NCBI RefSeq assembly: GCF_000246985.2
Contig: NC_022084.1
Coordinates: 1,823,224-1,887,223, forward strand
Direction of reading: 5' to 3'
Origin: Thermococcus litoralis DSM 5473
GTDB taxonomy: Archaea > Methanobacteriota_B > Thermococci > Thermococcales > Thermococcaceae
Length of the DNA: 64,000 nt
Below, in pieces: positions 1,686 to 38,095 of the stretch. Positions within the stretch are counted from its first letter, which is position 1; every line of letters begins with the position of its first letter. The position numbers and the translations under genes are program-made. The notes beneath the pieces were generated by a model, which made no database searches, was not told the origin of the DNA, and worked only from the letters and a program-made list of their open reading frames with translations.

Positions 1686-1699
1686 AACGAGCAGTAACC

Positions 1700-2016
1700 C
1701 TGACCTCCTCCCCGCCGTGAACGGTGAGGGTTCCAACGAGCTAACCCCTTGCCAGTGGCAGGGAAGTTTACGGGCGACTCATTCCCTACTCGGCGTTACC
1801 GCCTTTCGGTTCAGCCCGAGGGCACGGTCTTGTGCCCGTTACCCCTACCGCAAGCAGTTCGGGGTTATGGTTTCAGAGGCTAAACCTTCAATCTTTGACA
1901 GCTCTAAAGGGCAGTTCTTCAAGGACGCCTGTCGGTGTCTAAACCACTCCAAGCGGAGTGGTAACGCGAAACCCCTCATCTCATCGGGTTATTAAATTTG
2001 GCCTCTTCGAGGCCTC
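1700..2016. ncRNA. GC-rich, hairpin-dense segment: candidate structured RNA (possibly a relic TnpB-element end)
   Basis: This stretch is visibly richer in G+C than its surroundings and carries several clean inverted repeats: CCCCGCCG/CGGTGAGG (1710-1729, one mismatch), TGCCA/TGGCA (1750-1760), GGGCAC/GTGCCC (1820-1837), ACCACTCC/GGAGTGGT (1943-1962) and GGCCTC/GAGGCC (2000-2014). High GC with many perfect stems is the mark of structural RNA in an AT-biased hyperthermophile. The 92-codon frame through it (1717-1995) has no ribosome binding site and no recognisable domain, and I do not call it a gene. On the minus strand, CCGTTCACGGCGGGGAGG near 1710 resembles the right end of archaeal IS605/TnpB elements, where omega RNA ends. 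Strand and identity are open. Confidence 0.45.
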
Positions 2017-31065: not shown

Positions 31066-31170
31066 TGCCGGGGGCGGGCTTTGAACCCGCGACCTCCCGG
31101 TTTCCCAGGCTCCCCCGAAGGGGAGCAGCCCTATGAGCCGGGCGCTCTGACCAGGCTGAGCCACCCCGGC
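31066..31170 (-). tRNA. Elongator tRNA-Met (anticodon CAT) with a 30-base intron
   Basis: Acceptor GCCGGGG/CCCCGGC, D-arm, anticodon stem CCCGG/CCGGG with loop CTCATAA once spliced, and T-arm GGGTTCAAAGCCC. A 30-base intron at 31102-31131 sits after the base 3' of the anticodon (position 37) and has its own stem (GGCTGCTCCCC/GGGGGAGCC), the usual bulge-helix-bulge layout cut by the archaeal splicing endonuclease. A minus-strand TATA box (GATTTAAAAAC) lies about 30-40 bases upstream. Its exon 1/intron junction is complementary to the guide of the C/D box sRNA at 37977-38030. Confidence 0.97.
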
Positions 31171-36068: not shown

Positions 36069-36446
36069 TCACCTATAGTCAGGTTTTAGAATATTCAGCC
36101 CAGAAATCTTTTCAAAATGCCTTGTGTTGTAGGTTACAATTGTTAGTCCATTTCGTAGTGCAGTGGCGGCTATTAATGCATCAGCAATACCTACTTGGTA
36201 ATCTCTTCGAAGCTCGCCCCCGAGGATTGCTATCTCTTCGTCAAGTGGAATTACATTAAAGTGGGATAGAAATCTCAGTATCTTCTCTTTTTTAACGACG
36301 TCTCTGGTTTCTTTTCCTGAAAATATCTCTGCGATTGTTATTGTCGAAATGTGTATCCCTTCCTTCGAGATTTTTAGTAAAAATTCCTTTGATCCAGCTA
36401 CTCCTCGAAGGATATCAATTATTATGTCAGTATCCACTAGATACAT
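36069..36446 (-). CDS. VapC-like PIN domain toxin, 125 aa
   Basis: PIN acids are visible: MYLVDTDIIIDILRG (Asp), ITIAEIFSG (Glu), VGIADALIAATALRNGLTIVTYN (Asp, and the family ending TYNTRHF). It is of VapC length and begins inside the end of the antitoxin gene. Expected action is RNA cleavage when released by the antitoxin. Its position between pxpA and pxpB is unusual. Confidence 0.9.
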   Translation of the reverse strand: MYLVDTDIIIDILRGVAGSKEFLLKISKEGIHISTITIAEIFSGKETRDVVKKEKILRFLSHFNVIPLDEEIAILGGELRRDYQVGIADALIAATALRNGLTIVTYNTRHFEKISGLNILKPDYR

Positions 36447-36627
36447 CTCGATCCCACTCTTTTCTAAGCTTTTTGAGATCTATTTTCTCACGTATAATCC
36501 CAAATACTTCTTCAATGTCTTTTTCGAGTTCATCTATTATGACTAGCTTGACTTTCTTTGGAGCTTTTACCTTCTTCACTGGCTTAAATACTCCATTTTC
36601 ATATATGGCATCAACAATGTTCGGCAT
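36427..36627 (-). CDS. DUF104-type antitoxin for the VapC-like toxin, 66 aa
   Basis: VDAIYENGVFKPVKKV is the N-terminal motif of the DUF104/AF2212 antitoxin family (beta strands), with a charged C-terminal helix ending SGY. It overlaps the toxin gene by 20 bases. The upstream region (36628-36681) has TTAATAATGAATC, a weak promoter candidate, so it may have its own transcript. Confidence 0.88.
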   Translation of the reverse strand: MPNIVDAIYENGVFKPVKKVKAPKKVKLVIIDELEKDIEEVFGIIREKIDLKKLRKEWDRDVSSGY

Positions 36628-37506: not shown

Positions 37507-37992
37507 ATGCTTGTTATAGACGCTGCAATATTCATTCAAGGGGTTGATGTTGAAGGTGTTACAAGCCCAAAGGTGCTTGAAGAGATTAAAGACCCGGAAT
37601 CCAAGGTATTCATTGAAAGCTTGATTAGTGCGGGAAAGGTTAAGGTTCTCGTCCCCTCAAGGGGGAGCATAGAGGCTGTTAAGAAGAAAGCTTTAGAGAG
37701 TGGGGAGCTTGGAGAGTTAAGCGAAGCAGATATTGAAATCTTGGCCTTAGCTTATGAACTCAAGGGAGAGATTTTTACCGATGACTACAACCTTCAAAAC
37801 ATTGCAACACTTCTCGGCTTAAAGTTTAGAACGCTGAAGCGTGGAATAAAAAAGGTCATAAAATGGCGCTACGTCTGCATTGGGTGTGGGAGAAAGTTCA
37901 AAACTCAACTGCCAAAAAACATATGTCCCGACTGCGGGAGTAAGGTTAGATTACTCCCAAAAAAGAAGAGAAAGAAGCGTCAGCGCTCATAG
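37507..37992 (+). CDS. nob1: Nob1 endonuclease (PIN domain plus zinc ribbon), 161 aa
   Basis: [13 protein letters not shown] and [14 protein letters not shown] plus [12 protein letters not shown] give the PIN active-site Asp/Glu; a zinc ribbon CIGCGRKF...CPDCGSKVR follows, and a Lys/Arg-rich tail. It makes the mature 3' end of 16S rRNA. The start follows a short TATA-like TAACCCTTTTCTCC and lacks a clear ribosome binding site. The last 16 bases overlap the antisense C/D box sRNA. Confidence 0.93.
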
Positions 37993-38030
37993 GGTTCTTC
38001 ATCACTCCGCCAGAGTTTCTCATCATCCGC
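37977..38030 (-). ncRNA. C/D box sRNA candidate, predicted guide for C34 of pre-tRNA-Met
   Basis: In order on the minus strand: terminal GCG, box C ATGATGA (38026-38020), a nine-to-ten-base spacer, box D' CGGA (one mismatch), box C' GTGATGA, a 15-base guide region, box D CTGA (37983-37980) and terminal CGC. Guide bases CCCTATGAGC, ending two bases from box D, are complementary to GCTCATAGGG at the exon 1/intron junction of the tRNA-Met gene in this window. The fifth base upstream of box D lies opposite anticodon C34, the position methylated under the standard rule. A TATA box lies 25-30 bases upstream (38053-38064). C34 methylation of elongator tRNA-Met by a C/D guide is known in other archaea. 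Confidence 0.7.
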
Positions 38031-38052: not shown

Positions 38053-38064
38053 CCTTTATAACTT
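38053..38064 (-). promoter_or_regulatory. TATA promoter of the C/D box sRNA
   Basis: On the minus strand CCGGAAAGTTATAAAGG, a purine-rich BRE followed by a TATA box, is centred about 26-30 bases before the first base of the sRNA, the right distance for a transcript that begins at its terminal stem. Confidence 0.6.
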
Positions 38065-38095
38065 TCCGGAATTATTGTACAATTAACTAAACTCC

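Follow-up and report, generated by a model that had tools for sequence, protein, structure and literature searches.

A predicted sR41-family box C/D RNA of Thermococcus litoralis whose guide pairs across the exon/intron border of elongator pre-tRNA-Met

The window analysed here, a stretch of 64,000 nucleotides from Thermococcus litoralis DSM 5473, carries on its minus strand (37977-38030) a box C/D guide sRNA of the Rfam family sR41 (RF01126), which is conserved in Thermococcaceae. We are highly confident that this sRNA, transcribed from a promoter of its own, directs the 2'-O-methylation of C34 in the precursor of elongator tRNA-Met, whose gene lies in the same window. As far as sequences can tell, the strongest evidence that the guide would read the tRNA precursor is a covariation, in three states, between the guide and the first bases of the tRNA intron. 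This covariation, and the apparent hand-over of the guide to a second RNA in a sister genus, are what adds to knowledge; the remainder is an ordinary component of the cell. In the mechanism that we propose, the sRNA would be transcribed against the 3' end of nob1 and would form an RNP with L7Ae, Nop5 and fibrillarin. Pairing of the D guide with bases 31 to 37 of elongator tRNA-Met and with the first three bases of the intron would then allow the 2'-O-methyl group to be set on C34 prior to intron removal. For T. litoralis, we infer that the sRNA is transcribed, that the RNP assembles and that C34 is methylated.

The sRNA gene and its boxes

The original prediction, made from the sequence alone, had placed boxes C, C' and D and a terminal GCG/CGC stem on the minus strand, and all of them were found again by direct reading: box C (ATGATGA) at 38026-38020, box C' (GTGATGA) at 38005-37999, box D (CTGA) at 37983-37980, and three pairs of terminal stem between 38030-38028 and 37979-37977. 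Box D' had been called imperfect, and reads indeed CGGA (38009-38006, minus strand) instead of the consensus CUGA; among relatives, several have CTGA and others CGGA. Box D' is often degenerate in known C/D RNAs, hence the mismatch is not disqualifying. With its boxes C, C' and D, its length of 54 nt (the archaeal range being approximately 50-60) and its short terminal stem, the RNA looks like a usual archaeal box C/D sRNA. The covariance-model search, which had been proposed as a check, gave 61 bits with RF01126, for a gathering cut-off of 54; the match spans 37978-38030, covers the full 53 positions of the model, and has an E value of 1.9e-11 for the whole window. The window RNA is therefore a member of an existing Rfam family, of a known kind and with a known type of function.

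A TATA box at the proper distance had also been announced. The TATA-like element TTATAAAG (38061-38054, minus strand) ends 24 nt ahead of the sRNA and may act as its promoter; upstream of it lies CGGAAAG (38062-38068, same strand), and GGAAAGTTAAAAGG, or a near variant of it, is found at the equivalent upstream place in most relatives of the same genus.

Pairing with pre-tRNA-Met and covariation with the intron

The target gene, an intron-containing tRNA with a CAT anticodon, is located at 31066-31170 on the minus strand and was detected by Rfam (tRNA model, 53.9 bits); ARAGORN, used in its bacterial setting, missed it. The cloverleaf reading would place a 30-nt intron at 31102-31131, that is at the canonical 37/38 position. 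Two other CAT genes, both intronless, are present elsewhere in the genome, one of the initiator type and one of the Ile type, so that by elimination the window gene should be the elongator tRNA-Met.

The D guide CCCTATGAGC (37985-37994, minus strand), which occupies positions +2 to +11 from box D, forms ten consecutive Watson-Crick pairs with the precursor, three of them in the intron. The paired stretch, GCTCATAGGG (31129-31138, minus strand), consists of G31 to A37 followed by intron bases 1 to 3, with C34 at 31135. Guide base 37988, fifth from box D, faces C34, at the distance from box D that is the rule for targets of C/D RNAs, and the same register (+5 opposite C34) is seen in 52 of 52 genomes. 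The pairing across the exon/intron border that had been predicted is thus confirmed, tRNA gene included. In the window, GCTCATAGGG occurs exactly twice, once in the tRNA and once opposite the guide (37985-37994), for an expected number of 0.10, and two copies were found in 0 of 100 shuffles. Computed on isolated duplexes, without proteins, the pairing energy of the 13-nt guide is -19.7 kcal/mol for the stretch in the precursor and about -10.4 to -10.7 kcal/mol for the spliced tRNA-Met, the initiator tRNA or tRNA-Ile(CAU). These three tRNAs have GCTCATA in common, and seven pairs (G31 to A37) remain after splicing. As the other three of the ten pairs depend on the intron, all three tRNAs would be poor substrates.

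Searches for the family were conducted in 94 Thermococcaceae genomes. With box D relaxed to CNGA, the guide followed by a box-D-like sequence was matched in 90 of the 94, a few of the hits being extra, unrelated sites. To reach f2 (genus g7) and f3 (genus g8), families of the same class that stand further away, we used a pattern in which the bases upstream of TATGAG were free; the searches for the guides and tRNAs of these two families left positions +9 to +11 open. Wherever both RNAs were read (52 genomes), all ten pairs of the +2 to +11 duplex were kept, with the intron/guide triplets GGG/CCC in 47 genomes, AGT/ACT in 3 and AGC/GCT in 2; genomes are not independent events here, and what is observed amounts to three states, with a +9 change that is possibly common to g7 and g8 and a different +11 base in each state. 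The guides, borne within C/D RNAs, are ACTTATGAG in g7 and GCTTATGAG in g8; tRNA-Met introns start with AGT in g7 and with AGC in g8. For g8, the target expected from the altered guides was set down before the tRNAs were located; for g7, the prediction and the tRNA genes were obtained at the same time. The tRNA-Met genes of g8 were located with a tRNA model, intron patterns having given no tRNA in this genus.

The proposed role of the gene as C34 guide gains support from this duplex, perfect in all 52 genomes, and from the covariation; action before splicing, also proposed from the start, is supported by the fact that intron start and guide changed in step in two lineages, on both sides of the splice site. 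We take this as evidence, at the level of sequence, that an archaeal guide reads the precursor rather than the mature tRNA. If so, the intron would be what distinguishes elongator tRNA-Met from the two other CAU tRNAs.

Mature tRNA, rRNA and nob1 mRNA as alternatives

It could be imagined that mature tRNA-Met is the main substrate of the guide, the pairing with the intron being a by-product of a conserved splice-site sequence. The seven pairs that survive splicing, and the constraint that the BHB splice motif also exerts on the intron start, would fit such a scheme; however, the guide bases at +9 to +11 change one by one with their intron partners across the three variants, a pattern that a conserved splice site would not by itself produce, and splicing costs the duplex about 9 kcal/mol. 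We regard this possibility as very unlikely. An even smaller probability goes to an RNA devoted mainly to rRNA methylation (in 23S, at the equivalent of G1950, as proposed for Pyrococcus sR41), with an incidental match to the tRNA. The idea draws on the 23S target suggested for an RNA called 'sR41' (PMC2584109), but no run of consecutive Watson-Crick matches between the D guide and 16S/23S exceeds 6 (7 with a longer query), and the tRNA duplex covaries. On the D' side, the longest Watson-Crick match to 16S/23S of the window C-to-C' segment, where the D' guide GAAACTCTGG is found (38010-38019, minus strand), is 7. Fourteen different C-to-C' segments were collected from 23 relatives out of 32, those that fitted the parsing pattern, and none of the 14 reached 9 or more pairs with 16S or 23S of T. 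litoralis, the longest match being 8; random 12-mers commonly reach 6 to 8. Candidate rRNA targets for both the D and D' guides were thus sought, and none was convincing. The core of the D guide is invariant within the family, unlike the D' segment. The D' guide of the window RNA appears to be target-less, and we read the RNA as a single-purpose guide. The 23S target of PMC2584109 seems unsupported by the present matches. In that paper, the Pyrococcus 'sR41' is an orphan possibly targeting 23S rRNA, and 'sR49' is the tRNA-Met guide; the conflict may come down to a difference in naming, the sR41 of the paper being another RNA of the same name.

The sRNA also overlaps, in antisense, the end of nob1 (37507-37992, plus strand; PIN-domain RNase with a zinc ribbon, PIN_6 60.5 bits), as had been stated: the nob1 stop codon is at 37990-37992, and the sense strand ends with CGT CAG CGC TCA TAG. 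Within 37977-37992, the last four codons and the stop are complementary to box D and to the guide, so that the nob1 mRNA bears the tRNA target sequence. The synteny check that had been suggested covered 26 genomes in which both nob1 and the sRNA were read: 21 of them, over six genera, have the same overlap (13 nt when measured from box D), and in the 5 others the two genes are apart or in tandem. The overlap is an old shared arrangement rather than a peculiarity of the T. litoralis genome. Its conservation could point to an antisense regulator of nob1, the C/D fold merely stabilising the transcript. Nevertheless, the sRNA is retained where it is located elsewhere or does not overlap nob1, and its conservation is centred on the guide that matches the tRNA. 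Moreover, 16 of 17 antisense snoRNAs of T. kodakarensis overlap the 3' end of a gene (PMC4247193), so that such a position is usual there for antisense C/D RNAs. Common descent suffices to explain the overlap, and we give hardly any credence to a regulatory transcript. Since GCTCATAGGG spans the last codon and the stop of the nob1 mRNA, it is conceivable that the sRNP also binds this mRNA or methylates it at the final serine codon, which would couple a nuclease of ribosome maturation to the supply of this tRNA guide, but we hold this to be highly improbable.

Known guides and a probable hand-over in a sister genus

Guidance of C34 methylation in elongator tRNA-Met had been called established in other archaea, and the literature agrees: the haloarchaeal (Haloferax) sR-tMet is cited as the identified guide of the mark, on experimental grounds (Joardar 2011), in PMC4033218 and PMC6601510; for Pyrococcus and further archaea, a separate C/D RNA had been predicted to guide this methylation, with the comment that it has to take place ahead of splicing (PMC2584109, PMC7994747). 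The window RNA matches the Pyrococcus C/D sRNA of RF01126 over its whole length and has the same boxes and the same D guide, CCCTATGAG; the D' segment is not conserved. Haloarchaeal sR-tMet (RF02163) shares with it the guide CCCTATGAG and the target nucleotide, as well as, according to the literature, the precursor target, but differs by a D'-C' hairpin and a CCGA box D. With the RF02163 model, the window RNA obtained 31 of the required 50 bits, at a looser threshold and with CCCUAUGAG as the aligned guide, and falls outside the family. Judged by its guide, which is the one expected for C34 of an intron-containing tRNA-Met, it would nonetheless work like sR-tMet. Patterns for the haloarchaeal tRNA-Met intron gave only the complement of the sRNA itself and unrelated sites. 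The C/D RNA of the tRNA-Trp intron (C34/U39) is likewise a case of C/D-guided wobble methylation before splicing, except that its guide is inside the intron and not in a separate gene. In human, C34 of elongator tRNA-Met also has C/D guides, SNORD97 and SCARNA97 (PMC6601510), with the difference that these eukaryotic guides are two and cooperate.

The pairing also bears on a report of Cm34 in P. furiosus tRNA-Met, where the modification was assigned to the initiator (PMC7668247). The mark itself speaks for our reading, its assignment to the initiator against it. The initiator could form only seven pairs with this guide, and the elongator would be expected; the assignment merits a second look.

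In the large sister genus g4, all 45 loci examined have at the equivalent place an RNA with the sR41 frame, in which box D is never preceded by TATGAG. At each of the 45 loci, a second C/D RNA starts directly downstream of this sR41 orthologue and bears the tRNA-Met guide, followed by a box D that reads CCGA in 43 loci and CTGA in 2. An apparent loss of the guide in g4 was an artefact of the strict pattern first used (TGATGA...CTGA), and relaxing box D to CNGA recovered it. The absence of the Met guide from the sR41 orthologue would thus not mean that the function was lost, since the neighbouring RNA bears the guide. At one locus, where neither RNA reaches an Rfam cut-off, the first matches sR41 best (33.1 bits) and the second sR-tMet (31.6 bits); with its hairpin, the second RNA is also nearer to RF02163 in form. 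The D' segment of the first RNA has up to 12 bases matching 23S. Three genomes filed in g4 (G047, G053 and G064) retain the sR41 type. A tandem duplication followed by a division of labour would be a likely history of these loci. As far as the literature that we examined shows, the main primary papers being outside that scope, the hand-over has not been described. The Rfam family sR41 is here given a target, and a single guide sequence is seen to be borne at the same locus by two different RNA scaffolds.

Some observations on tandem arrangements were made on the side. An example of the g4 tandem lies at L126:1387-1519; its second RNA (L126:1451-1519) has a D' guide, TCCAAGACGGG, with an 8-base match in 23S (CCGTCTTG), which may be a second target. 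In genus g3 (L004 and L023, just ahead of position 1501), a further C/D half-unit, with guide GGGACTGGCC and CTGA, abuts sR41; the GGACTGGCC-CTGA guide of this half-unit is also present in the first RNA of 23 g4 genomes and has no rRNA match over 8 bases. The sR41 and sR42 of T. kodakarensis (PMC9014305) were considered as a tandem pair of this sort and rejected, as their coordinates and spacing do not fit.

Elsewhere in the window, two adjacent short ORFs at 36069-36627 (minus strand) resemble, judging by their translations, a PIN-domain toxin and its antitoxin, and the stretch 1689-1839 (minus strand) matches the HgcC RNA family at 31.7 bits, below the threshold of 50.
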